Positions 7,176 through 34,831 of a stretch of DNA of 64,000 bases are shown piece by piece. The notes beneath the pieces were generated by a model that was not told where the DNA came from, searched no databases, and was given only the letters and a program-made list of their open reading frames with translations. Numbering within the stretch: position 1 is the first letter of the stretch; every line of letters starts with the position of its first letter. The position numbers were made by a program, and so were the translations under genes. Source of the stretch: Cupriavidus pauculus (GTDB lineage: Bacteria > Pseudomonadota > Gammaproteobacteria > Burkholderiales > Burkholderiaceae); the NCBI RefSeq assembly GCF_002858765.1, contig NZ_PJRP01000011.1:124001-188000 (forward strand). The letters run 5' to 3'.

Positions 7176-7176
7176 A

Positions 7177-10354: not shown

Positions 10355-10398
10355 ATCTAGACGGGTACATTACGGGCATTCCACTCTGCAGTTTGAAG

Positions 10399-15550: not shown

Positions 15551-16191
15551 TGACGGGAAAACTAAATCGGCGGCGGTTCTTACCCCGCTCACCTATGACG
15601 CGTGCCCAATGTGTTCCGTCCGGCCTGATCGAGCGTGCGGGAAATGGCGCGGCTGACGGCCAGACACCCGGTCATTGATCGCTGCAATGGGCAAAGATTG
15701 TGATACGGGCAAACTACGCTGATCGATCTGCGATGAGGATCGGTCGCGATGAGTGGGTAGACGGTGTAGGCTCGCAGTGCGTCGCAGAGTAGGCGGTAAC
15801 TGTGCCAGGCCGGTTGACAAGCCAAGCCAAGGGAAGCCTGCGCGCCAGCGGGCATAGCATGCCCAAGTGAGACGGTCCTTCGCCCGCATAGCTCTCGTCG
15901 CCGTTCTTATTCTGGATTGCTATTGCCGACTACTACTATGAGCATCGGAGGGTGGTCCGTCGATGGTCAACGGTCCATCGAAACAGCCGGCGAGAAAGTG
16001 TCAATGCATGGTCCCGACCCGAATCCGTTGAAGCGCACCACCTGGTGGGAGCGCCTGTGCCCGATCCCGAACGCTAGCGCAACTCTAGCAGGGGGGAGAA
16101 ATATTCGCGTCCCCTGTGTTGGGGACAAGTGCATGGCATTGAGCGTGGCTTTTTCAGACGATGGCGGGCTCTTTGAGCTGGATGTCTGATT
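15551..16191 (+). other. Intergenic, no gene recognised
   Basis: About 640 bases upstream of the lipoprotein gene. Open frames exist on both strands (for example 15917-16189 plus) but none shows a start signal or recognisable family. Together with the recombinase remnant that follows, the stretch looks like decayed DNA. Confidence 0.5.
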
Positions 16192-16536: not shown

Positions 16537-16559
16537 TTATTTGACTGGGTATCAAAAAC
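16537..16559 (+). promoter_or_regulatory. Operator-like palindrome upstream of porin
   Basis: TTATTTGA-N7-TCAAAAAC, a variant of the perfect TTATTTGA-N7-TCAAATAA sites at 17941 and 26571. The first half is identical and the second half matches at 6 of 8. The embedded TTGACT (16541-16546) can act as a -35 box, so a protein bound here would compete with polymerase for the promoter of the porin starting at 16687. Confidence 0.6.
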
Positions 16560-16686: not shown

Positions 16687-17745
16687 ATGAAAAGAAGCCT
16701 GGCCATCGCCGGTGCGCTGCTAGCGACCGGCGCGACCGCGCACGCCCAATCGTCTGTCACGCTGTACGGCGTTGCAGACGCGGGTATTGAATATCTGAAT
16801 CACGTACCGAACGCCGCGAAGCAATCGTCAAGCCTCGTGCGCATGACGTCCGGCAACATCGCCGGCAGCCGCTGGGGTTTGCGTGGCGTGGAAGACCTGG
16901 GTGGCGGGCTGAAGGGCGTGTTCCTGCTTGAAGGCGGCATGGTGCTCGACTCCGGCATGGCCGCGCAGGGCGGGCGGTTGTTTGGCCGCCGCGCATATGT
17001 CGGCCTCGACACGCCGTATGGGCAGGTCACGATGGGGCGCCACCACAACCTGACGTTCGACCTGATCATCGGCTTCGATCCGATGTATTTCGCCCCCAAG
17101 TATTCGTCGTACTCGCATGACACCTGGTTGGCAGGGCGTACTGACAACGCGGTGAAATACACCGGCAAGTTCGGCGGGCTCACCGCGTCGGCGCTCTACA
17201 GCTTCGGCGTGGATTCGACGATTGCGAACGGCAGCGAAGTGCCGGGCAACAGCCGGGTGGGCCGGGAAATGAGTGCAGGGTTTTCCTATGACATGGGCAA
17301 GTTCCGCGTGGCCGGCGTGTTCGATCAGCTCAATGGCACCTCCGCAGCTACGGCCGGACGCACCGAGCGTCGCTACGTGGCATCGGCTGCCGCTGACTTT
17401 GGCCCCGTGTCAGCCTACTTGGGGTATCGCCGACTGGTCAGCCAGATCCTGACCTCGATGACTCGTACGGACCTGTTCTGGACGGGTGCGACCTATAACT
17501 TCAACCAGGCGTTTGCGCTGACCGGGGCTGTTTACAAGACCAACGACCGCACATCGGCGAAGGATCCGATGTCGTTGGTGATGTCTGCCGACTACCGGTT
17601 TTCGAAGCGCACAGACGCCTACCTGACGGCGTCATACACCTTGAATAAGGGCGGTTCCGCGCTGGGTGCCAACGGGTATGACGGCTCCGTGATTGCGGGT
17701 GCCAACCAATTTGGTGCCGTGATCGGGCTGCGCCACAACTTCTGA
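16687..17745 (+). CDS. OmpC-type general/specific porin
   Basis: A 352-residue outer-membrane trimeric porin of the Gram-negative porin 4 family. The ATG at 16687 follows a strong GGAGGAG. The signal peptide ends at AHA-QSSVTLYG, and the first barrel strand QSSVTLYGVADAGIEYL is diagnostic. Internal signatures include SRWGLRGVEDLGGGLKGVFLLEGG and GRLFGRRAYVGL. The C-terminus ends in the BAM-recognised aromatic, GLRHNF. The gene precedes the aromatic-acid operon and shares its operator, so it likely admits that operon's substrate. It is separated from the operon by about 260 bases containing the operon's own promoter. Confidence 0.95.
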   Translation: MKRSLAIAGALLATGATAHAQSSVTLYGVADAGIEYLNHVPNAAKQSSSLVRMTSGNIAGSRWGLRGVEDLGGGLKGVFLLEGGMVLDSGMAAQGGRLFGRRAYVGLDTPYGQVTMGRHHNLTFDLIIGFDPMYFAPKYSSYSHDTWLAGRTDNAVKYTGKFGGLTASALYSFGVDSTIANGSEVPGNSRVGREMSAGFSYDMGKFRVAGVFDQLNGTSAATAGRTERRYVASAAADFGPVSAYLGYRRLVSQILTSMTRTDLFWTGATYNFNQAFALTGAVYKTNDRTSAKDPMSLVMSADYRFSKRTDAYLTASYTLNKGGSALGANGYDGSVIAGANQFGAVIGLRHNF

Positions 17746-17940: not shown

Positions 17941-17963
17941 TTATTTGACAGCATATCAAATAA
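17941..17963 (+). promoter_or_regulatory. Perfect operator palindrome of the catabolic operon
   Basis: TTATTTGA-N7-TCAAATAA with perfect 8-bp arms. It covers the -35 box and most of the -10/-35 spacer of the promoter at 17945-17973, the geometry expected for a repressor. The same motif occurs at 26571-26593 (perfect) and 16537 and 26538 (variants). The TetR gene at 25678 is the nearest candidate binder. Confidence 0.8.
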
Positions 17964-18005: not shown

Positions 18006-19259
18006 GTGAGCGAACAAGACAAGCCGCAAGTGACGGCGGGGATGCGAGGTGCCTCATGGGATGCACGGCTGATGAATCGGCCGTACCAGATGGTGCCCTA
18101 TGCCTTGGGCACGGCCGATGGGCAGCGAACGCTTGGTTTCCTGTTCACCGCCACCGGCAAGGAGAAGACCGTTGTATCGCTGATGCATCCGCGCGAAATG
18201 GCGATCACCCACTATCTGGTGCCGTTCGTGCTCGATGCCGGGTGCGCTTGCTGGGTGCAAGGTCCGCGCTCCATTGGCAACGACCTGCGCCTGGAACACG
18301 AGATCGCGTTGTTCGATGTTGCGGCCGGCATGACGCACCTGCGTGAACTCGGCTACGAAAAGATCGTGCTGCTTGGCAATTCGGGCGGAGCGGGCTTGTA
18401 CACGTTCTACAATCAGCAGGCGCTGACACCCCGTGAAATGCGGATTGCCCGGACGCCGGGTGGCCGCCCGACGAACCTGGGTGAACTGCATATGCCGGAA
18501 GTCGATGCGTTCATCCTTGTGTCGCCGCATCCGGGGCAGGGCAAACTGCTGATGAGCGGCATTGACCCGTCGGTCACCGACGAAGACGATCCCATGCAGA
18601 CGGATCCGACACTCGATCCGTTTTCGAAGGCCAACGGGTTCGATGTGGAATCCGGCAAGGGCCGATATGCGCCAGAGTTCATCGAGCGATATCGCGTCGC
18701 CCAAACCGAGCGCGTTGCGCGCATCGATGCACGCGCCAGGGACATGCTGCGGGCCAAGCAGGCGGCGCGCCAGCAGGTGAAGGCGGGCTCGGCGACCGAT
18801 GCAGACCGCCGACTCGCTGCCCATGCACCGATTTTCGAGGTCTGGCGCACTGACGCCGACCTGCGCTCCTGGGACATCTCCCTGGACCCGTCTGACCGGA
18901 AGACCGGCTCGCTCTGGGGCAAGGACCCCTTTGTGTCCAACTGGGGCAGTGTGGGGTTCGGGCGCGTCGTTACGCCGGAATCGTGGCTCTCCACGTGGTC
19001 TGGGCTGTCATCGAATGCAGCACTGGACAAGACGCTCGGCGCGCTGCATCAGCCAACGCTGCTGCTCGAATACACCGGCGACCAGTGCACGTTCCCGGCT
19101 GATATTCGTGCCATCTACGATCAGATCCCTGCGGAGCACAAGCGCCACATTCGTGTGCGTGGCAACCACCATGGCATGGCGTTGAGCCGCGATGAGGAGC
19201 CCGGCCAGCGCGTTGCCGGCCGCCATATCGTCGAATGGCTGCGCGAATCGCTCGGTTAA
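18006..19259 (+). CDS. Alpha/beta-hydrolase-fold enzyme, first gene of aryl-CoA operon
   Basis: A 417-residue protein from a GTG preceded by AAGGAG. The nucleophile elbow is GNSGG with Ser126. A likely acid and base are in the YTGDQC segment and RGNHHGMAL near the C-terminus. Inserted helices at about residues 210-265 (Arg/Ala-rich) may form a lid. There is no signal peptide, so it is cytoplasmic. Within the operon it could hydrolyse a ring-cleavage product (for instance to maleate plus a keto acid) or an ester entering the pathway. I cannot assign a substrate. It is 41 bases upstream of the ligase gene and controlled by the operator at 17941. Confidence 0.8.
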   Translation: MSEQDKPQVTAGMRGASWDARLMNRPYQMVPYALGTADGQRTLGFLFTATGKEKTVVSLMHPREMAITHYLVPFVLDAGCACWVQGPRSIGNDLRLEHEIALFDVAAGMTHLRELGYEKIVLLGNSGGAGLYTFYNQQALTPREMRIARTPGGRPTNLGELHMPEVDAFILVSPHPGQGKLLMSGIDPSVTDEDDPMQTDPTLDPFSKANGFDVESGKGRYAPEFIERYRVAQTERVARIDARARDMLRAKQAARQQVKAGSATDADRRLAAHAPIFEVWRTDADLRSWDISLDPSDRKTGSLWGKDPFVSNWGSVGFGRVVTPESWLSTWSGLSSNAALDKTLGALHQPTLLLEYTGDQCTFPADIRAIYDQIPAEHKRHIRVRGNHHGMALSRDEEPGQRVAGRHIVEWLRESLG

Positions 19260-19300
19260 GCGGTGCACAGACCCAATATAAGTACAGAGGTAGACAAACA

Positions 19301-21007
19301 ATGCTGCAACCCACCCATGTGCGCCCATCCGTCCTGTTGGACGGCGTGCGCTATCCCGATGAAGACCGCCTGCGCCGATACGTGGGCGAGGGCTATCTGA
19401 CTGGCGAGACACTGGTCGGCGCCTTCCGCCAGTCGTTCCGTGATCACCACGACCGTCTGGCGCTGGTCGGTCCGGAAGGCGAGTTCACCTATCAGCGACT
19501 GGACGAGTACACCGACCGACTCGGCGCTGCCTTGCTGGCGCTTGGGCTCCGACCGCTCGATCGCGCCGTCTTTCAATGCGGGAACAGCAATGAGTTGCTG
19601 TTCGCATTTCTCGGATGCCTGAAGGCCGGCATCATCCCGCTGTGCTCGCTACAGGCATTCCGCAAACTGGAAGTGGGCTATCTAGGCAATTTGTGTGAGG
19701 CGCGCCTGCATTTCGTGCAGGGCGATGACCCGAAGTTCGATGACGTCGCGTTTGCCGAGGAGATGCAGGCCGAAGTGCCAAGCCTCGAGTTCATCCTGCA
19801 GGCGCGCGGCGAGCGCCGCGGCCGCGCCGTGCTGCTGGCGGACCTGATCCGCGACATGCCGCTGGAGCGGGCGCAGCAGATGCTGGCCGAAGTCACCCAC
19901 GAGCCGTTCCAGGCCGCGGTGTTCCAGCTTTCAGGTGGCACCACGGGCGTGCCGAAGATCATCCCGCGCTTTCAGAACGAGTACCTGTACAACATGCGCG
20001 CAGTGGCGGCCTGCAACGGCTATACCGCTGATGACGTGCTGTTCTTCCCGACGCCGTACATGCACAACCTCAACATGGGCTGCTTCTTCGGGCCGTTCCT
20101 GTTGAGCGGCGCCAAGGTGACGGTGGCGCCCGATATCGGCGAGGAAACGCTGCAGTCGCTCGTGCGCGATTACGAGCCGACGTGGTTCGGCGTCGCCGGG
20201 CCGATCCTGAATCGCATCGCGCCGGAACTGTTGCGCGGCACCGCTGCCGACAAGGCGCGCCGGAACTTCATCGCACCGAAGAACGCCGCCAACCTGACTC
20301 GCCTGACCGGCTCGCCCACACATCATATTTTCGGCATGACCGAGGGCGTAATCATGTTCACGCGCCCGGAAGACCCAGCGGAGATTCGCGACCAATCGAT
20401 TGGCTACCCGGTATCGGATGCCGACGAAGTGCACATCGTGCATCCAGGCACCGAAGATCCCGTAGAAGATGGCGAGGTAGGGGAGGCGCTGTTCCGGGGC
20501 CCGTACACCATCCGTGGCTACTACAAGTCCGAGAAGGAGGATGTCACGCGCTTCACCGCCGACGGCTTCTACAGGTCTGGCGACCTGATGTCGGCGCAGG
20601 TAGTGGACGGCAAGCGCTACTACTTCTTCCGCGGCCGGATCAAAGACGTTGTGGATCGCGGCGGCGAAAAGATCAATGCCGAAGAGCTGGAAAACGTCAT
20701 CAACGAGCACCCCGCAATCCTGGCGTCTGCGGTCGTTGGCATGCCCGACAAGGTCTACGGCGAGCGGGTTTGCGCGTTCGTGCTGCTCAAGCCGGCCGCG
20801 GCGGCATCGGGCCTGACCTTGCCCGCACTCACCCAATACCTGCAGGAAGCCGGCCTCGCCAAGTTCAAGTGGCCCGAGCGGTTGGAGGTTATCCCCGAAT
20901 TCCCGCTGACGGCATCGGGAAAGCTCAGCAAGGTCCTGCTGCGTGACCGCATCGTCCAGATGCTGCGCACCGAAGCGGACAAAGACACTGTTCACCACGC
21001 AAAGTGA
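19301..21007 (+). CDS. Aryl-acid AMP/CoA ligase, EntE/DhbE-like
   Basis: Adenylate-forming enzyme, 568 residues from the ATG at 19301. The P-loop is SGGTTGVPK (residues 211-219). Downstream are the A5-type motif (FGMTEG), A7 (YRSGDLM), A8 (RIKDVVDRGGEKINAEELE) and the catalytic Lys in TASGKLSK near the end. The closest look is to 2,3-dihydroxybenzoate/salicylate-AMP ligases. The HN pair (His255-Asn256, in YMHNLNM) lies where DhbE uses His-Asn to bind the ortho-hydroxyl of its substrate. That suggests a 2-substituted aromatic acid. As the operon holds a CoA thioesterase and a CoA-type hydroxylase, the product is probably the CoA thioester, a known second half-reaction for some members. Confidence 0.85.
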   Translation: MLQPTHVRPSVLLDGVRYPDEDRLRRYVGEGYLTGETLVGAFRQSFRDHHDRLALVGPEGEFTYQRLDEYTDRLGAALLALGLRPLDRAVFQCGNSNELLFAFLGCLKAGIIPLCSLQAFRKLEVGYLGNLCEARLHFVQGDDPKFDDVAFAEEMQAEVPSLEFILQARGERRGRAVLLADLIRDMPLERAQQMLAEVTHEPFQAAVFQLSGGTTGVPKIIPRFQNEYLYNMRAVAACNGYTADDVLFFPTPYMHNLNMGCFFGPFLLSGAKVTVAPDIGEETLQSLVRDYEPTWFGVAGPILNRIAPELLRGTAADKARRNFIAPKNAANLTRLTGSPTHHIFGMTEGVIMFTRPEDPAEIRDQSIGYPVSDADEVHIVHPGTEDPVEDGEVGEALFRGPYTIRGYYKSEKEDVTRFTADGFYRSGDLMSAQVVDGKRYYFFRGRIKDVVDRGGEKINAEELENVINEHPAILASAVVGMPDKVYGERVCAFVLLKPAAAASGLTLPALTQYLQEAGLAKFKWPERLEVIPEFPLTASGKLSKVLLRDRIVQMLRTEADKDTVHHAK

Positions 21008-21020
21008 AGAAGGAAGAGAC

Positions 21021-21899
21021 ATGAACCCATCCACGCAAGGCGCCCACGCCAACGTGCCCGTCGTTGCATTGCACGGCGTGCATCACACTGCCCGGCCCAC
21101 CTGGAAACTTGCAGAAACGGTGCATTTCTATCGCGACCTGCTTGGTCTACCGCTCGTTCATGCTATCTCAGCGAAAGGGTGGGGGCCCGACAACCACGCG
21201 GATTTCCTGCACTTTTTCTTCGATAGCGGCAATGGCAGCACTATCGCCTTCTTCTACTACATCGGCACCGAACGCCCCGACTGGCTCACCGTTCGCGAGC
21301 ACTACCAGGACCGCGCCACGCACACTGCATGGCGGGTACGCGACGAAGCGGAGCTGCTGCAATGGCGCCAGCGCGTGGAGGCCGTTGGTATTCCGCTGCG
21401 CTACCAGATTCGTCATGAGGTGATCGAGTCGATCTACTTTAACGACCCGAATGGCTACCCGATTGAAATCACCTGGCAGGTGCGCCCGTTTAGCGACGCC
21501 GACAGGCAGGATGCAGCGTTCACGATGGATTCGGCCATCGAACTGGAGCGTGCACGGGAGAAGGGCGCAGCCTTTGCATCGATCGAACCCGTCTGGCAGC
21601 GCAAGGCGGAGCGGATCGAGCGAGCCGTGCCGAGCGCGGACAAGGCCTCGGTCTACGTACTGGATGTACCCGAGTTCGCGCCACTGATCGACGTGGCGCG
21701 TAAAACCGATGGTTACCAGACCACGACGCTCGGTAATGGTTACGTGCGCATCGACGGCAATCCGACACTGCAATTCCGGCGCAAGGAACTCGGCTTCAAA
21801 CCGGCGGTATGGTACGGGGCGCTGACGGGCGGCCTGGCAGGTAGCATCCGTCAATTCGACATGGATGCGCTGGTGGTGGCGCCGGGAGACGCGCAATGA
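21021..21899 (+). CDS. VOC-superfamily metalloenzyme, candidate ring-cleavage dioxygenase
   Basis: 292 residues, ATG at 21021 after AGGAAGAG. The N-terminal half is a vicinal-oxygen-chelate module with metal ligand candidates His21/22 (GVHHTA), His101 (RATHTAW) and Glu149 (NGYPIEITW), the type-I extradiol/glyoxalase pattern. Residues 170-292 are a second region with weaker similarity that may be a degenerate VOC module or a cap. In the operon it sits between ligase and hydroxylase, overlapping the latter by ATGA. A ring-cleaving dioxygenase is the missing step of the pathway and this is the only candidate. A glyoxalase- or isomerase-type role is possible. Substrate unknown. Confidence 0.7.
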   Translation: MNPSTQGAHANVPVVALHGVHHTARPTWKLAETVHFYRDLLGLPLVHAISAKGWGPDNHADFLHFFFDSGNGSTIAFFYYIGTERPDWLTVREHYQDRATHTAWRVRDEAELLQWRQRVEAVGIPLRYQIRHEVIESIYFNDPNGYPIEITWQVRPFSDADRQDAAFTMDSAIELERAREKGAAFASIEPVWQRKAERIERAVPSADKASVYVLDVPEFAPLIDVARKTDGYQTTTLGNGYVRIDGNPTLQFRRKELGFKPAVWYGALTGGLAGSIRQFDMDALVVAPGDAQ

Positions 21900-23056
21900 A
21901 GGTGGCGATCATTGGTGGCGGGCCGTCGGGGTTGTTCCTGTCGATCCTGCTGAAGGAGCGGATGGCGCAGGTCGACATCGATGTCTTCGAGCAGAATCCG
22001 GAAGATGCGACGTTTGGATTCGGCGTGGTCCTGGCCGATACGGGCCTGTCGAATCTGCGGTCGGCTTCACCGGTTGTGGTGGATCGCCTGGCAAAGGCCA
22101 TGCGTTTCAACGACCAGCATTCGATCGTCAGTCACGAACACCCTATCGTCATGAAGAAGCCGGGTGCGGGCGGCGGCGCTATTCCGCGCATCAGCCTGCT
22201 GACGGTACTGCAGGCGCGCGCCAAGGAGTTGGGCGTACAGGTGACGTACAACAAGCGCATCGCCGATTTCGATGCGCTCGATGCCGATCTGGTCGTCGGG
22301 GCGGATGGCATTGGCTCCCAATTGCGTACGGCCAATGAAGCTGCCTTCGGCACGACGCGCCGTACGCTGACCAATCATTTCGCCTGGTTCGGTGTGGCAA
22401 AGCCCTTTGCGAGTCCGGCCCTGGTGTTTCGCAAGTACGAGGGCGGCTACTTCGTGGCCCACTACTACCCGTACTCCGATTCGATGAGCACGTTCGTGGC
22501 CGAGTGCGACCACCAGACCTGGGTCGACTTCGGCATGGAGGAGATGAGCGCGGAAGCGCGGCAAGCCCTGTTTGAGTCGGTATTTGCGCCGGAGCTGGCG
22601 GGCCACGGATTGGTCTCGAACAACTCGATCTGGCGGCAGTTCCCGGTGATCCTCAATGCCAACTGGCATGTGGGCAAGCAGGTCCTAATTGGCGATGCAC
22701 TGACCAGCGCCCATTTCTCGATCGGCTCAGGTACCAGGATCGCCATGGAGGATGCCATGGCCCTGGCGGACGCCATCGTGGCGCACCCGGACGACGTCCC
22801 GGCCGCGCTGGAACAGTACGAAGCCGTGCGCAAGCCGGAGAAGGCCAAGCTGATCAGTGCTTCCGAGGCGTCTTACAACTGGTACGAACGCATCCGCGAG
22901 TGGATGGACGTGCCTACCCCGCACGAGTTCGTGTTCCGCTTCATGACGCGCACGGGTCGCGTCGACGTGGAGCGTCTGCGGGCGCAGTTTCCGGCGCTGA
23001 TGGCCGAGTTGGCCGCAGGCGGCGTCACGGCACTGGCCGCAGAAGGGCAGTCATGA
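21896..23056 (+). CDS. FAD-dependent monooxygenase, salicylyl-CoA 5-hydroxylase-like
   Basis: 386-residue class A flavoprotein hydroxylase. The FAD-binding GGGPSG lies at residues 7-12 with the ribose-binding acid Glu32. The second FAD/NADPH motif is VVGADGIGS (about 133-141), and the GD motif is IGDA (265-268). The TFGFGVVLAD segment and overall length resemble SdgC-type salicylyl-CoA hydroxylases and the N-terminal part of 2-aminobenzoyl-CoA monooxygenase, enzymes that hydroxylate CoA-bound ortho-substituted benzoates. It starts within the VOC gene stop (ATGA) and ends in an ATGA with the thioesterase, so these are translationally coupled. Role inferred: hydroxylation of the aryl-CoA made by the ligase. 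Confidence 0.85.
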   Translation: MKVAIIGGGPSGLFLSILLKERMAQVDIDVFEQNPEDATFGFGVVLADTGLSNLRSASPVVVDRLAKAMRFNDQHSIVSHEHPIVMKKPGAGGGAIPRISLLTVLQARAKELGVQVTYNKRIADFDALDADLVVGADGIGSQLRTANEAAFGTTRRTLTNHFAWFGVAKPFASPALVFRKYEGGYFVAHYYPYSDSMSTFVAECDHQTWVDFGMEEMSAEARQALFESVFAPELAGHGLVSNNSIWRQFPVILNANWHVGKQVLIGDALTSAHFSIGSGTRIAMEDAMALADAIVAHPDDVPAALEQYEAVRKPEKAKLISASEASYNWYERIREWMDVPTPHEFVFRFMTRTGRVDVERLRAQFPALMAELAAGGVTALAAEGQS

Positions 23057-23502
23057 TTCGCGCCACCGAGTATGTGCTGAGCGAGCGCCCTTTTGTCGTC
23101 AGACGCACCGTGCGCTGGGGCGACTGCGACCCAGCCGGCGTCGTCTACACGGGTCGGTTCACCGACTACCTGCTCGGTGCGGTCGGCCTCTATACCGCGC
23201 ACATGGCGGGCGGCGACGGCCGGCTCGGGGACGCCCATGGCGTCGGTACACCATGCAAGGCGATGCGATTCGAATTTATTGGCACGCTCTGGCCAGACGA
23301 TGTGATCGATATCACCTGCACCGTCGAAGCCATTCGCACCCGGTCGTTCGATATCCGCTGCGTGGCCCGCCGGCCCGATGGCACCCCGGTCTTCGACGCC
23401 ATGTTCTCGCCGATCTGCGTACGCCAAGACCGGCGCGAAGGCACGCCCATCCCCGACTCGCTGCGCGCGGTGCTGAACCGCTTCCTCTCGCCAGCCCTGT
23501 GA
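23053..23502 (+). CDS. Hotdog-fold aryl-CoA thioesterase (4HBT type)
   Basis: 149 residues, starting at the ATG overlapping the hydroxylase stop. The motif WGDCDPAGVVYTGRF matches the active-site helix of 4-hydroxybenzoyl-CoA thioesterase; Asp26 corresponds to catalytic Asp17 of the Pseudomonas enzyme. It would release the hydroxylated aromatic acid from CoA after the flavoprotein step, as needed before ring cleavage of a gentisate-like diol. Its stop overlaps a GTG that could begin the next gene. Confidence 0.88.
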   Translation: MIRATEYVLSERPFVVRRTVRWGDCDPAGVVYTGRFTDYLLGAVGLYTAHMAGGDGRLGDAHGVGTPCKAMRFEFIGTLWPDDVIDITCTVEAIRTRSFDIRCVARRPDGTPVFDAMFSPICVRQDRREGTPIPDSLRAVLNRFLSPAL

Positions 23503-23522
23503 ACCTGTACCTGGAATCGTCA

Positions 23523-24281
23523 ATGTCGAAGTATCGAATCGGGCAGATCGTGCCCAGCTCCAATATCACGATGGAGCGCGAAGTCCCTGCCATCTTCCAT
23601 GCCCGTATGCAGGTGCTCCCCGAGCAGTTCAGCTTTCACGCAAGCCGCGTGCGCATGCATCGCGTGGTGGCCGAGGAACTGGAGAGGATGAACCGGGATA
23701 TGGGGCGTTGCGCGCTGGAACTGGCCGACGCGCGCGTGGATGTCATGAGCACGGCGTGCCTGGTGGCCACCATGTGCATGGGCAACGGTTATCACCGTCA
23801 GGTCATCGAAGAACTCGGTGCCGCCATTGGCGATGCGCCGTATCGTCCCCAGATCATGACATCGGCCGGTGCACTGGTGGAGGAACTCAAGGACTTCGGT
23901 GCGCGCCGCATTTCGCTGATGGCGCCGTACAGCGACGCCCTGACGAAAACCGTCGTCGAGTACATCGAGCACGAGGGCATCGAAGTCAAGGATGTGATCA
24001 ATTTCTCGATCCTCGACAACCTGGAGGTGGGCGAGCGCGATCCGCTGCAACTGCTCGAAGACGTGAAGCGTCTGGACACCAAGGGTGTGGATACCGTGGT
24101 CCTGTCCGCCTGCGTGCAGATGCCGTCGTTGGCGGCGCTTGAGCCCGCCCAGCAAGCGCTTGGCATTCCGGTGACGTCGACGGCGGCCTGTACCGTGCGG
24201 CAAATGCTGCGCAGGCTTGGGCTGGAAGCCAAGGCACCGGGCGCAGGCGCTTACCTGGGCAGCCAGACCGGATTGCGCTGA
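23523..24281 (+). CDS. nicE: Maleate cis-trans isomerase, NicE-like (Asp/Glu racemase superfamily)
   Basis: 252 residues, the same length as NicE (~250). The N-terminus YRIGQIVPSSNITMEREVP and the two half-site cysteines, Cys79 (STACLVA) and Cys197 (SACVQM), match the catalytic pair of maleate isomerases, which convert maleate to fumarate. The ATG at 23523 is chosen by homology. A GTG at 23499 overlapping the thioesterase stop would add eight residues and give tight coupling. Its presence implies that the operon's ring-cleavage route yields maleate. There are no nicotinate genes around it. An arylmalonate-decarboxylase-type relative is the main alternative, but the QIVPSSN start favours maleate isomerase. 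Confidence 0.85.
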   Translation: MSKYRIGQIVPSSNITMEREVPAIFHARMQVLPEQFSFHASRVRMHRVVAEELERMNRDMGRCALELADARVDVMSTACLVATMCMGNGYHRQVIEELGAAIGDAPYRPQIMTSAGALVEELKDFGARRISLMAPYSDALTKTVVEYIEHEGIEVKDVINFSILDNLEVGERDPLQLLEDVKRLDTKGVDTVVLSACVQMPSLAALEPAQQALGIPVTSTAACTVRQMLRRLGLEAKAPGAGAYLGSQTGLR

Positions 24282-24345
24282 GCATCCGCTCATTCACAAG
24301 GCGGCCGCCCACGGAAGGCGGCGCCAAGACCACGGAGACCCTGAT

Positions 24346-25593
24346 ATGCAAGACGCCCCCCAAGTATTGCCCCGTGCCACCGGCTGGATCTACGTCAGCG
24401 TGATCCTGGGCGCGGCGCTCGGCATGCTGGCCGGATACGCCCCCTTGTTCAATGCGACGGCCGGCGTCTTCGTCAGGCCGCTGGCCGCGGAGTTCGGCTG
24501 GGGACGCTCGCAGGCGTCCCTGTCGTATGCCGCGTCGATGTTCGGGCTGGCCATTGTCAGCCCGATTGTTGGCGCCATGATGGACCGGTTCGGTATTCGT
24601 CGGGTCATCGTGTGTTCGGCGATCGTCTTTGGCCTGGCCACCGCTGCGATGTCACTGCAGAACGGCAGCATGCTGATGTGGGTGGCGCTTTCGGTCGTTG
24701 TCGGCGTGTCCGGTGCGGCCACCTCGGTGCTGGGCTACCTCGCGGTGCTGCCCCAGTGGTTCGATCGCCGGCTAGGGCTCGCGCTGGGCATTGCGATGTG
24801 TGGCCTGGGGGCAGGTACCGTCATCCTGCCGATCACGGCGCAATTTCTCGTCACGACATTTGGCTGGCGTATGGCCTATGTCGGTCTGGGTGTCGGCTCG
24901 GTCGTGCTGTCGTTGGTGGCCTGTGGCCTGTTGCGGGAGCGGTTCTCCGGTGCTCGTCGGGCCAGGCACGCGCCGGGAGGCGTGGCACTGGCAGTGGCGA
25001 TGCGTAGTTACCGGCTCTGGGCGATCTGGCTGGTGTTCGTATTGAGTTCGGCGGCCACCTTGTCCTTGGGGCCGCATCTCCCATCACTGTTTGCGGATCG
25101 CGGCTTCGATGCGGGGATGGCTGCGCGGAGCGCTTCGATGGTCGGTGTCGGACTCCTCGTCGGACGACTCCTCACCGGGTTGCTGATCGACAAGATTCAT
25201 GCGCCTCTGGTGGCAAGCGTATTCTTCGTTGGCGGTGCCATCGGGGTATTCCTGCTGCGCGGGACGCATGATTACACGGCGTTGCTGGTAGCGACCACCC
25301 TCATCGGCCTGACCATCGGCGCGGAAGGCGACCTGATTTCCTACCTGGTGCGGTCATACTTCGGCCTCGCGTCGTTTGGCTCACTGTTCGGCATTGCCTT
25401 TTCTGGCTACGGCCTCGGTGCGGTCATTGGTCCGATTGGGCTGGGCGCCTGGTTCGACCGGCATGGCAGCTACGATGTGCCGTTGCTGGTCCTGCCCTGT
25501 ATGCTGCTGGCCGCCGCTGCGCTGGTGCTGTCGCTCGGACGCTACAGAGCCGGCGCGCATGGGCAGGACGTAACGGCGGTCGTGTCTGCCTAG
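24346..25593 (+). CDS. MFS transporter, likely aromatic-acid uptake
   Basis: 415 residues with about twelve hydrophobic helices and the MFS loop 2-3 motif (GAMMDRFGIRR). The second half repeats the pattern (GRLLTGLLIDKI). ATG at 24346 after ACGGAGAC. It resembles monocarboxylate/oxalate-formate-type carriers. It is the last structural gene of the operon, 64 bases after the isomerase, so a role in bringing in the pathway's acid substrate is likely, complementing the porin and the Bug receptor. Confidence 0.88.
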   Translation: MQDAPQVLPRATGWIYVSVILGAALGMLAGYAPLFNATAGVFVRPLAAEFGWGRSQASLSYAASMFGLAIVSPIVGAMMDRFGIRRVIVCSAIVFGLATAAMSLQNGSMLMWVALSVVVGVSGAATSVLGYLAVLPQWFDRRLGLALGIAMCGLGAGTVILPITAQFLVTTFGWRMAYVGLGVGSVVLSLVACGLLRERFSGARRARHAPGGVALAVAMRSYRLWAIWLVFVLSSAATLSLGPHLPSLFADRGFDAGMAARSASMVGVGLLVGRLLTGLLIDKIHAPLVASVFFVGGAIGVFLLRGTHDYTALLVATTLIGLTIGAEGDLISYLVRSYFGLASFGSLFGIAFSGYGLGAVIGPIGLGAWFDRHGSYDVPLLVLPCMLLAAAALVLSLGRYRAGAHGQDVTAVVSA

Positions 25594-25677: not shown

Positions 25678-26484
25678 ATGCCTGCCGCCCGCAAGTCGCC
25701 TGCTGCCAAGGTTGCCGCACAGCCCACGCCCAATCCGGTGCCGCGCCGTCGTGGCCGGCCGCCGAAAACGGAGTCTCCGATTGGCGCCGAGCCCATGCTC
25801 AGTCGCACGACGATCCTGCAGCATGCGATCCAGCTGACGAAGACGGTGCCGCTGGACCAGATTTCGATGGTCCAGCTTGCCAAGGACTTTGGCGTGGCAC
25901 CGGGGCTGATCCACTATTACCTGGGCGGCCGCGATCAACTGGTGTCCGGCGTGCTGAACGACTACTATCGCCAGCGCACCCTCCGTATCCCAGCGCTGAC
26001 AGGGGATTGGCGCGCAGATGTCGAGCGCATTGCTCGGCTCAGCTTCCAGGTAGCGGTGGAGAATCCCGGCGTGAGCAACTATGTGGCATCGCATAACCGG
26101 TACCGCCTATTCCAGGAGGTGCAGCCGGGCGAAACCGACTATGGCCTGGAGTTCTTCAACCGCATGACGTCGGCCATCATGCAGGGCGGGTTTTCCGCCG
26201 AACAGGTTGCGCTGGGGTACCACTTGCTGGCGCAGTACCTTGTCGCGGCAAGCATGGCCGAAGCCTCGCGCCAACTGCCTGCCTATCACCAGGCCTTCAT
26301 CCAGAACAAGCTGGATTCCGTGTCGGCCGAGCAGTATCCCGGTGCACGCTTTGTCAGCAAGCCGTTTTCCCACCTTTCCTCCGATACCGCCTTCGAGGAA
26401 GGCCTGCGCATTACGCTCGATGGCATCGAAGCCTGGCAGCGTGACGCAAAACCCGTGAAGAAGAAGAGCGCGCGTTCCGCGTAA
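25678..26484 (+). CDS. TetR-family regulator of the catabolic island
   Basis: 268 residues from the ATG at 25678. There is a long basic, Pro/Ala-rich N-terminal extension with an AT-hook-like RRRGRPPK (about residues 23-30), then a TetR HTH: ILQHAIQLTKTVPLDQISMVQLAKDFGVAPGLIHYYLGGRDQLVSGVLNDYY (about 47-97). The C-terminal ligand-binding domain ends in a lysine-rich tail (KPVKKKSARSA). It follows the MFS gene by 84 bases in the same orientation. Most likely it represses the porin, operon and Bug promoters through the TTATTTGA-N7-TCAAATAA sites, released by a pathway intermediate such as the aryl-CoA. That link is inference. Confidence 0.88.
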   Translation: MPAARKSPAAKVAAQPTPNPVPRRRGRPPKTESPIGAEPMLSRTTILQHAIQLTKTVPLDQISMVQLAKDFGVAPGLIHYYLGGRDQLVSGVLNDYYRQRTLRIPALTGDWRADVERIARLSFQVAVENPGVSNYVASHNRYRLFQEVQPGETDYGLEFFNRMTSAIMQGGFSAEQVALGYHLLAQYLVAASMAEASRQLPAYHQAFIQNKLDSVSAEQYPGARFVSKPFSHLSSDTAFEEGLRITLDGIEAWQRDAKPVKKKSARSA

Positions 26485-26537: not shown

Positions 26538-26560
26538 TTATTTGAGATGCAGTCAATAAA
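26538..26560 (+). promoter_or_regulatory. Operator variant O1 upstream of Bug receptor gene
   Basis: TTATTTGA-N7-TCAATAAA. The left arm is identical to the operon operator and the right arm matches at 6 of 8. It covers the region where a -35 box for the -10 TACAAT at 26563 would lie. Confidence 0.55.
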
Positions 26561-26562
26561 AC

Positions 26563-26568
26563 TACAAT
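26563..26568 (+). promoter_or_regulatory. -10 element TACAAT between two operators
   Basis: TACAAT (5 of 6 to consensus) lies between O1 and O2. A weak -35 (TTTGAG, 26541-26546, 16-bp spacing) lies within O1. Transcription would start inside O2, so occupancy of either site should block it. Confidence 0.5.
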
Positions 26569-26570
26569 CC

Positions 26571-26593
26571 TTATTTGACTGTATATCAAATAA
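26571..26593 (+). promoter_or_regulatory. Perfect operator O2 upstream of Bug receptor gene
   Basis: TTATTTGA-N7-TCAAATAA with perfect arms, the same as at 17941. It overlaps the expected transcription start of the Bug gene and lies 33 bp from O1, about three helical turns, allowing same-face binding. Confidence 0.8.
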
Positions 26594-26638: not shown

Positions 26639-27595
26639 ATGAAACGCCCCTTCCTCGCCCTGACGCTGCTCGCCATGGCTTTGCCGGCCGTCGCCAGCAC
26701 GTATCCCGACAAGATGGTTCGGATTCTCGTGCCATCGATCGCGGGCAGCGCGCCGGATATCATCGCCCGCCAGGTTGCCGAACGCCTGACGAACACCTGG
26801 AAGCAGCAGGTGATCGTGGAGAACAAACCAGGCGGCAACGGCATTGTCGCGATGAGCGCGCTCAAGCAGGCGCCGGCCGACGGATACACCCTGGTGCTGT
26901 TTCACGCGGCGGCGGCTGTCACGACGCCCGTGATGTACAAGGAAGCGAAATTCGACATCCAACGCGACACCGAAGTGGCGGCGACGCTGGCGTACACGCC
27001 GATGATGTTCGTGGCCGGTCCCGCGACGCTCTACAAGACGCTCGGCGACGTCATCAAGGACGCCAAGGCACGTCCTGACGACGTTGTGATCGGAAGTCCG
27101 ACCCGTGGCTCCGTTCCTCATCTCACGGCGGAAATGATGGGACAGCTGCAGAAGGCGAAGTTCCGGCAAGTGAGCTTCAGCGGAACGACGCAAGCCATCC
27201 AGGCCGTGGTGAAGGGCGATATCCCAATCTATGTCGATGGCATCGCACCGCTCGTGCCGCTGGTGCGTGGCGGTCGCCTGAAGGCGCTTGCGGTGACGTC
27301 GGACGTAAACCTGCCCGGCCTGGAAGGTATTCCACTGGCCAAGGACGTGGCGCCTGGTCTTGTCGCCAAGGGCTGGTTCACGATCTTCGCACCCAAGGGT
27401 ACGCCAGTGCCGGTGCTGGATCGCGTCAATGCTGCCGTCAACCAGTCATTGACGCAGCAGCAGTTTATCGACCGGCTCAAGGACCTGGGCACGTATCCGA
27501 TGCCGATGTCGCGGCCGGAAGGCGCAAAGTTCATCGAGGCCGAGAAGCTCCGTTGGGAGAAGGTGATTTCGGACGCCGGTGTGAAGCCGGAATGA
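26639..27595 (+). CDS. Bug-family (TctC) periplasmic solute receptor
   Basis: 318 residues with a signal peptide ending near AVA-STYPDK. The family pattern is clear: YPDKMVRILVPSIAGSAPDIIARQVAERL, QVIVENKPGGNGIVAM, ADGYTL, and a C-terminal KVISDAGVKPE. Bug receptors bind carboxylates and aromatic acids in the periplasm. No TctAB membrane partner is encoded nearby, as is common in Cupriavidus and Bordetella relatives. Two operators flank its promoter, tying it to the upstream operon. Ribosome site GGAGACAAC precedes the ATG. Confidence 0.92.
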   Translation: MKRPFLALTLLAMALPAVASTYPDKMVRILVPSIAGSAPDIIARQVAERLTNTWKQQVIVENKPGGNGIVAMSALKQAPADGYTLVLFHAAAAVTTPVMYKEAKFDIQRDTEVAATLAYTPMMFVAGPATLYKTLGDVIKDAKARPDDVVIGSPTRGSVPHLTAEMMGQLQKAKFRQVSFSGTTQAIQAVVKGDIPIYVDGIAPLVPLVRGGRLKALAVTSDVNLPGLEGIPLAKDVAPGLVAKGWFTIFAPKGTPVPVLDRVNAAVNQSLTQQQFIDRLKDLGTYPMPMSRPEGAKFIEAEKLRWEKVISDAGVKPE

Positions 27596-27652: not shown

Positions 27653-28798
27653 ATGCGTGACATTCTTTCCCGGGCAGAGATCGGCCCGGTCAATGGCTTG
27701 CGCCTGCTTTGTGCGGGAGCATGCGCGGCGCTCGCCGTCCTGGCGTCGACTTCCCATGCAGAACCGGCCGGAAAGCCGCACCCTCTCTCGGTGGCGCAGC
27801 CCGGCCCAAGCCTCGTACTGCTGGGTACGGCCGGTGGCCGGACTTCATGGCGAGGTTCGCAGTCTGCGGGAATCGCCTCGGCAGTAGTGGTTAACGGCCA
27901 GGTCTACCTCGTGGATTTCGGCGCGGGCTGGCTGCGGCGCTACTTCCAGGCGGGCTTGGGCGCGCCGCCACCGGGACGGGGCCTTGAAACGCTACGGGCG
28001 GCGTTCATCACCCATATGCATGCGGACCACATCGTCGACTATCCGTCGCTCGTCCTGTTTGGCGCGTCGGACGGCTTGGCCGAACGGCGTCAGAAACTCA
28101 AGGTGATCGGGCCTGGCTCGCGCGGGAAACTGCCACCTGCGAGCGGCGGCCACGACGGTGTAGCGGAGGTCGTGGCACCCGAGCAGCCAATGCCTGGCAC
28201 CGTTGCCATGACCGAAGCGCTATACCGTGCCTTCGCGGCGGACATCAATGACAACATTCTGGATAGCCGCAAGCCGAATCCTCATAGCCGCGTCGATGTC
28301 ATGGATATCACGCTGCCGACTGGCCTTGACGTGGATCCCGATCGCGATCCCGCGCCGAAGATGGCACCGTTCGAGATCTACCGGGACGAGAACGTCAGGG
28401 TGACGGCAACACTGGTCAACCATGCTCCCGTCTATCCGGCATTCGCGTATCGGTTCGACACCTCGAATGGGTCCGTTGTCTTCTCTGGCGATACCAGCCC
28501 CGACCCGAATCTGATTCGGTTGGCGCAAGGCGCTGACGTGCTGGTGCATGAGGTGATCGACACCGCGTGGGTGGATGCCCTGTACCCGAAGCCCAGGAGC
28601 GCGGCGCAGGAGGCCAAGGCGCACCATCTTGTGCATGCGCATACCGCTGCATCGGATGTCGGTGCCATCGCCGAAGCGGCCCACGTCAAGACCCTCGTCC
28701 TGTCGCATCTGGCCCCCGCCGACAGTGACCCCCGTCGATGGTCAGCAGCCAGACAAGGCTTCTCGGGGAAGGTGATCGTTGGTCGCGATCTCCAGTGA
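27653..28798 (+). CDS. Exported metallo-beta-lactamase-fold hydrolase
   Basis: 381 residues. The first ~36 residues look like a signal peptide (LLCAGACAALAVLASTSHAEP), placing it in the periplasm. The zinc motif HMHADH (His121, His123, Asp125, His126) and downstream FSGDTSPD and LSHLAP segments are those of the arylsulfatase/RNase Z-like branch of the MBL fold. It lies 57 bases after the Bug gene, so it is probably cotranscribed. A periplasmic hydrolase here could unmask a conjugated aromatic (ester, lactone or sulfate) before import. Substrate unknown. Confidence 0.82.
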   Translation: MRDILSRAEIGPVNGLRLLCAGACAALAVLASTSHAEPAGKPHPLSVAQPGPSLVLLGTAGGRTSWRGSQSAGIASAVVVNGQVYLVDFGAGWLRRYFQAGLGAPPPGRGLETLRAAFITHMHADHIVDYPSLVLFGASDGLAERRQKLKVIGPGSRGKLPPASGGHDGVAEVVAPEQPMPGTVAMTEALYRAFAADINDNILDSRKPNPHSRVDVMDITLPTGLDVDPDRDPAPKMAPFEIYRDENVRVTATLVNHAPVYPAFAYRFDTSNGSVVFSGDTSPDPNLIRLAQGADVLVHEVIDTAWVDALYPKPRSAAQEAKAHHLVHAHTAASDVGAIAEAAHVKTLVLSHLAPADSDPRRWSAARQGFSGKVIVGRDLQ

Positions 28799-28973
28799 AT
28801 ACCCCTTGTTCCCCTTGCTCCCGCATCAAAGGAGCGCACGGGAACCACGCCCTAGCTTCCCAAGCCTTTCCTGTGGCCTATGCACGCCCACAGCGTGCGG
28901 CCCGCGCTCGTCCCGACGGCGAGGCTGACGATTCCTGCAAGCCAGATGTATTACGACAATAAAGGAGACAGTG

Positions 28974-30149
28974 GTGAAATTGAATCGTTTTGCAGCAGTT
29001 GCCCTGGCCGCGTGCTCGGGTTCCGCATTGGCCCAGTCGAGCGTCACGCTCTATGGCGTGGTCGACGCAAGCATCGAGTACGTGAACAACGTGGGCGCGG
29101 TGCCCACAGCGGCCAATGGATTCAATCCAGGGCCGGCGCATGACGTCGTTCGCATGAATTCGGGTGGCTTATCGGGTTCTCGTTGGGGTATTCGCGGCGT
29201 GGAGGATCTCGGCACAGGAACACAGGCTGTGTTTGTGCTCGAAAATGGATTCAACGGCGACACCGGCACGATGCAACAGTCGAGCCGACTGTTCGGTCGG
29301 CAGGCTTTTGTAGGGATAAAGAACGCGACGTATGGCCAGATCAGCCTTGGGCGTCAGTACACCTCACTATTCGACAGCATCGTCAACTTTGTGCCGGCGT
29401 ACTTTGCCACTCAGTATGAGCCCATCACGCTCTTCACCGGTGCGAACTTCCGCGAAGACAATACAATCAAGTACACCTTGAATGCGGGCCAATTCACCGG
29501 CGTCGCGCATTATTCCTTCGGCACCGGCGTGGCGTTGCCACAGACCGTGCAGTCGGGCCTGGCGATCGGCGGCAATGGCGAAGTGCCGGGCCAGGCGCGA
29601 AGAGACAGCGCTTATGGCGCGTCCCTGTCATACACCGGCGGGGCGCTGTGGGCTGCGCTTGCGTATGATCAGTTCAACCCCTCCATCGGCACCACGACCA
29701 GTGCGAGTAGTGGCAGCTTCAAGAAAGCCACGGCAGCGCTCAGCTATAGCCTGCCTTGGGGGCGGATCATGGGCGGCTATCGTTGGGGACAAAACAAGAC
29801 GCCGGCGGGTGCGACGATCGGACGCGATGACTTCTTCTGGATCGGCGGAATTTACCAGGTAACGCCGGCATTCAGCCTGACGCTCGAGTACGACTATGAC
29901 AAGGTCCGAAATGTATTCGGCAATACCAACGTTGCAAATCCCTGGCAGGTCAACCTTATCGCCGACTACAACTTCTCCAAACGAACGGACGTGTATCTGT
30001 CCGCAGCCTATGCGAAGAACGCGGGGTTGATGTTTGACTCTGCGTTGATTGCCTATGCGAATAGCCTCTCGCTTGGCAACAGCTATGTACTTGGCAACGG
30101 CAAGTCGTCAATGATGGGTGTGTCGATTGGCGTCCGGCATAAGTTCTGA
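28974..30149 (+). CDS. OmpC-type porin
   Basis: 391 residues from the second of two adjacent GTG codons (28974), which has better spacing to AAAGGAG than the first. Signal peptide ends at ALA-QSSVTLYG. The barrel segments SRWGIRGVEDLGTGTQAVFVLENGF and SRLFGRQAFVGI are typical, and the protein ends in GVRHKF. It is 175 bases downstream of the MBL gene without the shared operator, so it is probably the end of the same transcriptional island. It converges on the next porin across a strong hairpin. Confidence 0.94.
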   Translation: MKLNRFAAVALAACSGSALAQSSVTLYGVVDASIEYVNNVGAVPTAANGFNPGPAHDVVRMNSGGLSGSRWGIRGVEDLGTGTQAVFVLENGFNGDTGTMQQSSRLFGRQAFVGIKNATYGQISLGRQYTSLFDSIVNFVPAYFATQYEPITLFTGANFREDNTIKYTLNAGQFTGVAHYSFGTGVALPQTVQSGLAIGGNGEVPGQARRDSAYGASLSYTGGALWAALAYDQFNPSIGTTTSASSGSFKKATAALSYSLPWGRIMGGYRWGQNKTPAGATIGRDDFFWIGGIYQVTPAFSLTLEYDYDKVRNVFGNTNVANPWQVNLIADYNFSKRTDVYLSAAYAKNAGLMFDSALIAYANSLSLGNSYVLGNGKSSMMGVSIGVRHKF

Positions 30150-30460: not shown

Positions 30461-31513
30461 TTAGAACTTATGCCGAATACCGGTCGTCACACCAATGCGG
30501 GTGCTATGGCCATAAAACGGTGTGACAAAGGTCGGCTGCGCGGCGAGCGTGCGCCATGTTCCAGTGAGCGCGGTGTAGTCGGCCTCCACATAGACATCGG
30601 TACGCTTGCTGAAGTTGTAGTCAAGCATCACGGCGCCGGTGAAGCGGTTGCCGCTATCGCCGTTGATCTTCATGCGGTCATACGTGCCGGTGACCAGCAG
30701 CATCCAGGCGTCGCCGAAGGGATGCTTGGCGCCGGCGTAGAAGGCGTTGTCGCGATAGCCGGCTTTGTTATAGGTGCTGCGGGTAAAGCCGGCGTTGAAT
30801 TGTGTGTTGGCGAGTTTGTATGTGCCGCCAACTGACCAGACCTGCTGGTCGCTCAACGGCACGGCCGTGCCAAAGTAGGTGTTGGTGTCGCGCATGATCT
30901 GGTAGCCGCCGGCGAGCTTGAGCGGTCCGCTGGCGTACGTCACGCTGGCCCCGGTTGACGAGGACGTGGCAAAGCTGCCCGCAACTTCGCCGAATGCGTG
31001 CTGCGCGGCCAGCGTCACGGGGCCGAACGTGCCGCCATATTTCAGCATGTTGTCTTGTCGCACGCCGCCCGTATAGTTGCCGCTCTGGAAAGCGACCAGG
31101 CCGAGGTTGGGCAGCGCCATGGTGTCGTAGCTGGCAATCACTTCATGGATCACCGTGAAATCGCGGCCAAGTTTCAGCGTGCCAAAGTCGCCAGCCAAGC
31201 CGACATAGGCCTTGCGACCGAACAGCCGGCCGCCTTGCGAGGCCATGCCGGTGTCGGGCAGGAAGCCGTTTTCCAGTACGAACAGCGCCTGGTAACCCCC
31301 GCCGAGGTCTTCCGTGCCCGCCAGACCGAAGCGTGTGCCGGTGAGCACGCCGTCCCCCATCTGCACCTTGCCGCTCCCGTTTGCATTCTCATGCGTGGTG
31401 TAGCGGATGGTGGTGTCGACCAGGCCATACAGTGTCACGCTCGATTGCGCCAGGGCCAGTGTCGGGCTCGCGCCGCCGCAGGCAAGGCACAGCGGCAGGA
31501 TGAACTTCCTCAT
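30461..31513 (-). CDS. OmpC-type porin of the uronate island
   Basis: 350 residues. The ATG at 31513 has GGAGACAAC upstream and the signal peptide ends at ALA-QSSVTLYG. Barrel motifs TRFGLAGTEDLGGGYQALFVLENGF and GRLFGRKAYVGL are present, with C-terminal GIRHKF. It lies 95 bases downstream of the dehydrogenase gene on the same strand and likely forms an operon with it, giving entry for a sugar acid. Confidence 0.94.
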   Translation of the reverse strand: MRKFILPLCLACGGASPTLALAQSSVTLYGLVDTTIRYTTHENANGSGKVQMGDGVLTGTRFGLAGTEDLGGGYQALFVLENGFLPDTGMASQGGRLFGRKAYVGLAGDFGTLKLGRDFTVIHEVIASYDTMALPNLGLVAFQSGNYTGGVRQDNMLKYGGTFGPVTLAAQHAFGEVAGSFATSSSTGASVTYASGPLKLAGGYQIMRDTNTYFGTAVPLSDQQVWSVGGTYKLANTQFNAGFTRSTYNKAGYRDNAFYAGAKHPFGDAWMLLVTGTYDRMKINGDSGNRFTGAVMLDYNFSKRTDVYVEADYTALTGTWRTLAAQPTFVTPFYGHSTRIGVTTGIRHKF

Positions 31514-31608
31514 GTTGTCTCCGTATTTTTTTGGATGAATATGGGCGGCTGCTGTTGTTTGCGCACCGCCGTGGGACTGCAAAAATCGTGTGGCCGATGC
31601 GAGTGGCG

Positions 31609-33042: not shown

Positions 33043-33069
33043 TGGATTTTGGATTTTGGAAAATCCAAT
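33041..33069. promoter_or_regulatory. GntR-type operator between divergent dehydrogenase and regulator
   Basis: ATTGGATTTT-N9-AAAATCCAAT, perfect 10-bp arms. The spacer repeats GGATTTT, so there is an extra half-site. It overlaps the ALDH start codon and, on the other strand, the -35 side of a promoter whose -10 is TATAGT (33071-33076). Natural candidate site for the GntR protein encoded at 33117. Confidence 0.75.
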
Positions 33070-33116
33070 GTATAGTAAGCTCATGGTTCACCAAACGCAA
33101 CCGGGTTTCCACGACC

Positions 33117-34817: not shown

Positions 34818-34831
34818 TCGCATTGGCAAAC

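Follow-up and report, generated by a model that had tools for sequence, protein, structure and literature searches.

Gene content of the locus

The window analyzed here is a stretch of 64,000 nucleotides from Cupriavidus pauculus (RefSeq assembly GCF_002858765.1, contig NZ_PJRP01000011.1, positions 124,001 to 188,000), whose genome is a 7.4 Mb draft that is 99.92% complete; coordinates below are those of the window. It contains a set of genes built around an aryl-acid ligase and a metalloenzyme of the vicinal oxygen chelate (VOC) type, and this set proves to be a genuine catabolic unit, conserved across genomes and marked by a palindrome of its own. Start codons were refined with the sequence itself and with relatives. 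The genes are the following:

16687..17745 (+): Gram-negative porin, through which the acid probably crosses the outer membrane (Porin_4, 3.6e-48)
18006..19259 (+): alpha/beta hydrolase from a family without a name, candidate C-C hydrolase for maleylpyruvate (GTG start after AGGAG; invariant S126, D359, H389)
19301..21007 (+): aryl-acid adenylating ligase, candidate salicylate–coenzyme A (CoA) ligase (AMP-binding; HN....C motif)
21021..21899 (+): VOC metalloenzyme with a fused small domain, candidate gentisate dioxygenase (Glyoxalase)
21896..23056 (+): FAD monooxygenase, candidate salicylyl-CoA 5-hydroxylase (FAD_binding_3)
23053..23502 (+): 4HBT-type hot-dog thioesterase, candidate for gentisyl-CoA (4HBT_2)
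23523..24281 (+): maleate cis-trans isomerase, predicted product fumarate (50% identity to 4fq7, both Cys motifs)
24346..25593 (+): major facilitator superfamily (MFS) carrier, probable uptake of the acid (MFS family match)
25678..26484 (+): regulator of the TetR family, candidate binder of the palindrome (family scan; co-occurrence with the palindrome)
26639..27595 (+): TctC/Bug-type solute-binding protein, same regulon (TctC, 3.3e-49)

An earlier note on this DNA had seen in seven of these genes, from the hydrolase to the MFS carrier, a possible CoA-thioester pathway for an ortho-substituted aromatic acid. All seven are open frames on the + strand as claimed, and the family scans agree with the assignments made there (AMP-binding, Glyoxalase, FAD_binding_3, 4HBT_2, maleate isomerase, and MFS). 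The ATGA overlaps were located at the VOC/flavoprotein and flavoprotein/thioesterase junctions. The unit itself is larger than the note had it, since the porin gene at 16687 and the TetR and TctC genes belong to it. What had been overlooked was the operator, the genes for the porin and TctC, and the fact that the VOC protein has two parts.

A proposed operator palindrome

The alignment of 16 upstream regions revealed a palindrome, TATTTGA-N7-TCAAATA, 5′ of the hydrolase gene, an operator that is newly recognized here. Its main copies in the window, followed by two genes whose place in the unit is less certain, are:

16538..16558 (no strand): operator copy 5′ of the porin gene (1 mismatch; begins 149 bp upstream of the porin gene)
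17942..17962 (no strand): operator copy 5′ of the operon (perfect; begins 64 bp before the first start codon)
26539..26592 (no strand): two operator copies 5′ of the TctC gene (2 and 0 mismatches; perfect copy at 26572)
27653..28798 (+): metallo-beta-lactamase (MBL)-fold hydrolase, 3′ of the TctC gene, regulon membership less sure (family scan)
28971..30149 (+): second porin, uncertain member of the unit (Porin_4, 1.4e-46)

The window holds five matches to the palindrome at up to 3 mismatches, where 0.34 were expected. Only three sites in the 7.4 Mb have at most 1 mismatch, and all of them lie in the locus (16538, 17942, and 26572); the backwards-read control gave 0. Because these sites precede the porin gene, the operon, and the TctC gene, the unit was taken to consist of the porin, the operon, the TetR gene, and the TctC gene, with the MBL-fold gene and the second porin as possible additions.

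Among Cupriavidus loci, all 21 with this TetR gene had the palindrome within 350 bp 5′ of the gene for the hydrolase, and none of the 9 without it did. The corresponding counts for 80 loci from named genomes (2 of them skipped) were 30 of 45 and 3 of 33, and these comparisons include related loci that are not independent and some genomes present in both locus sets, which makes their Fisher values inexact. Scrambled palindromes (n = 197) matched a mean of 0.37 named loci and a maximum of 12, compared with 33 for the real one. We propose that the TetR protein binds this palindrome, and the operon genes are apparently switched together by one repressor.

Conservation of the gene set

A VOC relative (E 1e-20 or better) was present in 25 of 100 genomes including the host, all of them Cupriavidus; the nearest named match (98%) was in Cupriavidus sp. 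D384. For the named genomes, the loci of the best 80 of 388 VOC relatives were taken, some of which end at contig ends, and partners were sought by tblastn at 1e-15. All 80 loci had a ligase gene near the VOC gene; the hydrolase was there in all but one (79) and the flavoprotein in all but two (78), and fewer loci had the thioesterase (58) or the isomerase (51). The TetR (45 loci), TctC (31), and MFS (23) genes were less frequent, and the MBL-fold gene, nearby in 6, adjoins the operon in only some Cupriavidus.

Since these loci were selected by VOC similarity and the ligase and the flavoprotein belong to large families, the most telling partner is the hydrolase, whose window copy has no Pfam family. 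With the hydrolase as query, 14 of 399 Burkholderiales genomes were positive, with 21 matches, and 8 of the 21 lay within 3 kb of a VOC match (a hand count that includes the host genome, with at most 4 and at most 6 candidates scored per genome). The recurrence of the gene set is not due to chance. The survey of genome neighborhoods that the earlier note had called for finds its seven-gene set conserved.

Two arrangements occur in Cupriavidus. In 21 loci (L039–L059) the order is hydrolase, ligase, VOC, flavoprotein, thioesterase, isomerase, MFS, TetR, with a few departures: L047 and L052 gave no MFS match, L059 lacks the thioesterase, and in L053 the flavoprotein is split in two. In seven others (L060–L066) it is hydrolase, VOC, ligase, isomerase, flavoprotein; a different carrier gene comes next in the three that were mapped, and an MFS carrier was confirmed in one. 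Two further loci, L067 and L068, have the VOC and hydrolase genes with no matches to the ligase or the flavoprotein, and there the reduced pair (7082-11189 in L067) adjoins RraA-like, TctC, cupin, and intradiol dioxygenase genes. The arrangement was also found in other Burkholderiales, Pseudomonas, and Alphaproteobacteria, and in partial form in Actinobacteria.

Other genes accompany the operon in some named loci. A thiolase gene lies downstream of it in seven maps (L087, L098, L099, L101, L104, L108, and L109) and several kb off in L119, and some of the thiolase-bearing maps include SDR, SMP-30, or FadL-type genes. In Paraburkholderia oxyphila (L108:14532-18986), hydantoinase A/B-type (acetone-carboxylase-like) genes stand 3′ of the operon and the thiolase.

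The ligase and its likely acid

The best solved relatives of the ligase are the salicylate-AMP ligase 5wm2 and 2,3-dihydroxybenzoate-AMP ligases. The His-Asn pair that the earlier note had placed in the acid pocket is kept in 106 of the 106 ligases compared (110 loci, 4 without an aligned ligase; some genomes are present twice). Five residues after this Asn, 69 ligases have Cys, 36 have Tyr, and one has Val. In the alignments with solved enzymes the same residue is Cys in 5wm2 and PchD (salicylate) and Ser in 6e8o, 1md9, and 4iz6 (2,3-dihydroxybenzoate), and we take this position to set the preference for salicylate or dihydroxybenzoate. The window ligase carries the salicylate-type Cys (HN....C), and salicylate is likely the acid that it activates.

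The hydrolase-ligase-VOC order was found in 66 of 69 loci of the Cys class and in 0 of 36 of the Tyr class. As the residue tracks gene order, the loci fall into two operon classes, probably for two acids, so that the module is likely to handle more than a single acid.

Cupriavidus metallidurans CH34 (NC_007974.2), a metal-resistant bacterium that has been studied in depth, carries the operon, with the ten genes checked all open, and its locus (L040) has the palindrome. According to PMC8879955, this strain grows strongly (+++) on salicylate and does not grow on anthranilate, which removes anthranilate as a candidate substrate. The ortho-substituted aromatic acid of the earlier note is thereby narrowed, through the Cys motif and this growth, to salicylate as the likely acid. 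A substituted salicylate, or some other ortho-substituted aromatic or heteroaromatic acid, would fit the Tyr and the other gene order of the second operon class and the varying transporters of the loci, but we hold it to be unlikely in view of the Cys in the window ligase and of the growth pattern of CH34.

The VOC protein and its fused small domain

The first match of the VOC protein by phmmer, by profile, and by Foldseek E-value is PDB 9u42, whose entry title, our only source for its activity, is 'Homogentisate 1,2-Dioxygenase from Acinetobacter'. Six residues (H23, H65, H102, H133, Y140, and E150) are invariant in 40 VOC sequences, and all are matched in the 9u42 alignment. They include the His/His/Glu site described earlier (H23, H102, and E150), which we take to bind the metal; H133 and Y140 are presumably in the pocket. 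H133 has no counterpart in the FosB and 1zsw alignments shown. PcpA and LinE are precedents for a VOC enzyme that opens a hydroquinone-type ring. The earlier note had regarded a VOC enzyme in the cleavage of a gentisate-like diol as a new combination; for a hydroquinone-type acid there is a precedent in 9u42, a VOC-fold protein whose title names it a homogentisate 1,2-dioxygenase.

The VOC domain occupies approximately residues 17–205, and the last ~85 residues form a small unannotated domain; the last 89 residues gave no Pfam family match at E 1. In the structure model the last 44 residues have a pLDDT (predicted local distance difference test) below 50, so that the fused domain is not resolved there. 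The small part is a separate gene directly 3′ of the VOC gene in Tistrella, Pseudosulfitobacter, Mycobacterium avium, Rhodococcus qingshengii, and Streptomyces chartreusis, with 25–42% identity to the fused domain, and in each of the three Cupriavidus loci of the second type that were inspected it is encoded by a frame between the VOC and ligase genes. On this sequence comparison, the window VOC protein is a fusion of two proteins that are separate elsewhere, and the small unannotated protein is newly recognized here. That the parts are fused here and separate elsewhere suggests that they act together. A likeness of the small domain to MmoB/DmpM was dropped, since it was below the cut-off in two relatives (E 0.031 and 0.012) and the window piece matched nothing.

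Two plasmids show the VOC and small proteins in other company. On plasmid pP7a of M. avium (L166:7481-12351) their genes adjoin P450 and reductase genes, and no ligase or maleate isomerase is listed in the gene table, which is incomplete. A plasmid of S. chartreusis (L169:2146-10128) has an isomerase-VOC-small protein-hydrolase set; transposase genes separate it from nearby genes whose annotations are cupin, FAA hydrolase, and mycothiol-dependent maleylpyruvate isomerase, and this mix suggests that both lower routes may coexist side by side.

The hydrolase, the isomerase, and the flavoprotein

The hydrolase matched no Pfam family at E 0.001, and its structure model is an alpha/beta hydrolase with a mean pLDDT of 91. 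S126, D359, and H389, invariant in 38 hydrolase sequences, are proposed to be the Ser-Asp-His set of this fold. It has no close solved relative (best sequence match, E 1.2e-4), and its structure matches, varied hydrolases of the same fold, gave no clue to the substrate.

The maleate isomerase shares 123 of 246 residues with the solved enzyme 4fq7, and its ACLVA and SACVQMPS Cys motifs are aligned, which bears out its description as NicE-like. This identity suggests that the product is maleate. If the VOC enzyme gives maleylpyruvate, the hydrolase and the isomerase are most simply read as splitting it into maleate and pyruvate and then isomerizing maleate to fumarate. A pyridine route of the NicE type was rejected, as no NicX-, NicD-, or NicF-type partner was seen among the ten locus proteins scanned.

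The best NCBIfam match of the flavoprotein, over residues 1–367 with 317 bits, is to the N-terminal half of 'salicylyl-CoA 5-hydroxylase/oxidoreductase' PRK08255.

Gentisate genes elsewhere and the case of CH34

The search for cupin gentisate dioxygenases gave 0 matches at E 0.001 in the host genome. Forty of 60 Cupriavidus genomes exceeded the cut-off for this enzyme; in the 14 control genomes there were 4 with matches, none over the cut-off. Of a coregulated standard gentisate module elsewhere in the genome, whose discovery would refute the earlier note by its own terms, the first enzyme was thus not found. Nearby, as the earlier note had said, no cupin dioxygenase, maleylpyruvate isomerase, or fumarylpyruvate hydrolase was present among the ten proteins scanned; fumarylpyruvate hydrolase was not sought genome-wide. 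Six of 20 operon-bearing Cupriavidus genomes have no cupin dioxygenase over the cut-off, namely the host, CH34 (G030), G051, and G023, together with G020 and G035, which gave weak matches; the CH34 genome had no match. The search for salicylate 1-monooxygenase found no match at 1e-80 in nine genomes, a result that is uninformative by itself because the control was silent.

The 2022 study of CH34 lists ten central pathways with gentisate not among them, found no genes belonging to pathways already described for salicylate and several further compounds, and suggests undescribed pathways in Cupriavidus (PMC8879955). The operon is a concrete candidate for this gap, in which strong growth on salicylate stands without described genes. 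No account of the operon was met in the open-access literature by title or abstract opening, and a CoA-linked salicylate route with sdgC is already known (PMC13215587).

The proposed pathway

We infer each catalytic step, and the order of the steps, as follows. The porin, the MFS carrier, and the TctC protein would bring the acid in, and the ligase would convert salicylate to salicylyl-CoA. The flavoprotein would hydroxylate salicylyl-CoA at C5 to gentisyl-CoA, from which the hot-dog thioesterase would release gentisate. The VOC protein, together with the small domain fused to it, would then open the ring of gentisate between C1 and C2 and so form maleylpyruvate, which the alpha/beta hydrolase would split into maleate and pyruvate; the isomerase would turn maleate into fumarate. 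The conservation of the set, the ligase residue, the VOC match, the identity of the isomerase, the palindrome, the lack of a cupin dioxygenase match in the host and in CH34, and the growth of CH34 on salicylate favor the CoA-thioester route to maleate and fumarate put forward in the earlier note. Overall, a TetR-controlled unit for salicylate catabolism that uses a VOC dioxygenase and ends hydrolytically via maleate appears moderately probable.

Several observations weigh against this pathway. Two MaiA-family proteins over the cut-off are encoded elsewhere in the host genome. A cupin dioxygenase over the cut-off occurs in 14 of 20 operon-bearing Cupriavidus genomes and in 26 of 40 others (hand count); the operon and the cupin enzyme are thus not mutually exclusive, and a genus-wide replacement of the one by the other is ruled out. 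A host flavoprotein scores 177 bits with salicylate 1-monooxygenase (cut-off 446) and 247 bits with 3-hydroxybenzoate 6-monooxygenase (cut-off 459), so that a side route may exist. The window flavoprotein is below the PRK08255 cut-off (1078, set for a fusion of 768 positions), lacks the C-terminal half of that model, and also resembles VioD (209.5 bits, cut-off 620). CH34 can also use compounds other than salicylate for growth although it has no known genes for them, and 3-hydroxybenzoate is one of these (PMC8879955); its growth on salicylate is therefore not unique evidence. Growth on 3-hydroxybenzoate was dropped as support and counted as neutral, given that 3-hydroxybenzoate 6-monooxygenase was over the cut-off only in those 2 of the 8 genomes searched that likewise have a cupin dioxygenase, and CH34 had no match at 1e-60.

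The VOC structure model adds to these points. It has a mean pLDDT of 72, and its Foldseek superposition on 9u42 is poor (root mean square deviation 17.3, TM 0.23/0.37). BphC-type dioxygenases, at ranks 2 and 3, superpose better (3.5–3.7), as do methylmalonyl-CoA epimerases, over a shorter target, and the fold alone leaves the activity unsettled. VOC proteins have many activities and FosB is also among the matches, so that this protein might be an epimerase, an isomerase, or a thiol transferase that cleaves no ring, with salicylate degraded elsewhere, for example via catechol, a role in which the sub-threshold salicylate 1-monooxygenase-like protein of the host could serve. We consider this highly improbable: H133 is matched in 9u42 and not in the FosB and 1zsw alignments, the co-conservation with the hydrolase and the maleate isomerase suits ring cleavage, and no epimer step was seen that would fit between the neighbors.

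Of the named loci, 22 of 80 had no thioesterase found and 29 had no isomerase, and a thiolase gene is present in 14 (L087, L088, L098–L101, L104–L109, L119, and L144), for which the pathway does not account; its role may be to supply salicylyl-CoA from a compound with a longer side chain. Loci of this kind, together with the R. qingshengii stretch, where no thioesterase is listed in an incomplete gene table, would accord with CoA being kept through ring cleavage, such that the VOC protein opens gentisyl-CoA and the hydrolase, the thioesterase, or both free the acids later. This seems quite unlikely, as the best match with a named activity (9u42, by its title) acts on a free acid, the expected 2,4-dioxoacyl-CoA is not an obvious thiolase substrate, and general thioesterases exist in cells.

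Beyond the salicylate unit, the VOC enzyme, the small protein, the unnamed-family hydrolase, and the maleate isomerase may represent a new and widespread lower pathway for hydroquinone-type acids, with a two-part dioxygenase and direct hydrolysis to maleate, into which separate ligase/flavoprotein pairs would feed salicylate and one or more further acids; we offer this tentatively, at somewhat less than even chances. If the pathway is correct, salicylate is degraded by known kinds of enzymes in a new order, a VOC enzyme takes over the job of the cupin gentisate dioxygenase, and two protein families with no Pfam match over the cut-off (in the window) are added, as is a regulon whose palindrome is defined. 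Because salicylate serves plants as a defense signal, it is of interest how widely bacteria have such routes.

Neighboring genes

At 102-12516 the window encodes a protein of the filamentous haemagglutinin type, 2357 aa long, along with a transporter of the ShlB/FhaC type and a TonB-dependent receptor. A second catabolic-looking cluster at 30461-38475 comprises porin, aldehyde dehydrogenase, TctC, mandelate-racemase-type, RraA-like, epimerase-type, and SMP-30 genes. Frames of 513 aa (14051-15592, −) and 605 aa (38512-40326, +) had no Pfam match at 1e-5, and the latter may not be a gene.

Comparison with known systems

The maleate isomerase step is common to the proposed route and to the nicotinate nic pathway (NicE), which has NicX, NicD, and NicF, whereas none of these was seen among the ten proteins scanned. 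The VOC-fold homogentisate 1,2-dioxygenase 9u42 shares with the window protein the fold and the six matched invariant residues, and a hydroquinone-type acid is the presumed substrate of both; its chain of 182 residues lacks the extra 85-residue unit, and the models superpose poorly. In the hydrolytic branch of the gentisate pathway, maleylpyruvate hydrolase forms maleate and pyruvate. The products proposed here are the same, but the dioxygenase is of another family.

The salicylate-CoA/gentisate pathway comprises SdgA, SdgC, a thioesterase, and gentisate 1,2-dioxygenase. Both systems have a CoA ligase (a predicted one in the window), a flavoprotein related to salicylyl-CoA 5-hydroxylase, and a hot-dog thioesterase, and gentisyl-CoA and gentisate are the expected intermediates of both. 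They differ in that the window ligase is closest to siderophore-type aryl-acid ligases, the window flavoprotein lacks the C-terminal half of PRK08255, and the window route, which has no cupin dioxygenase match, would proceed through a different lower pathway.

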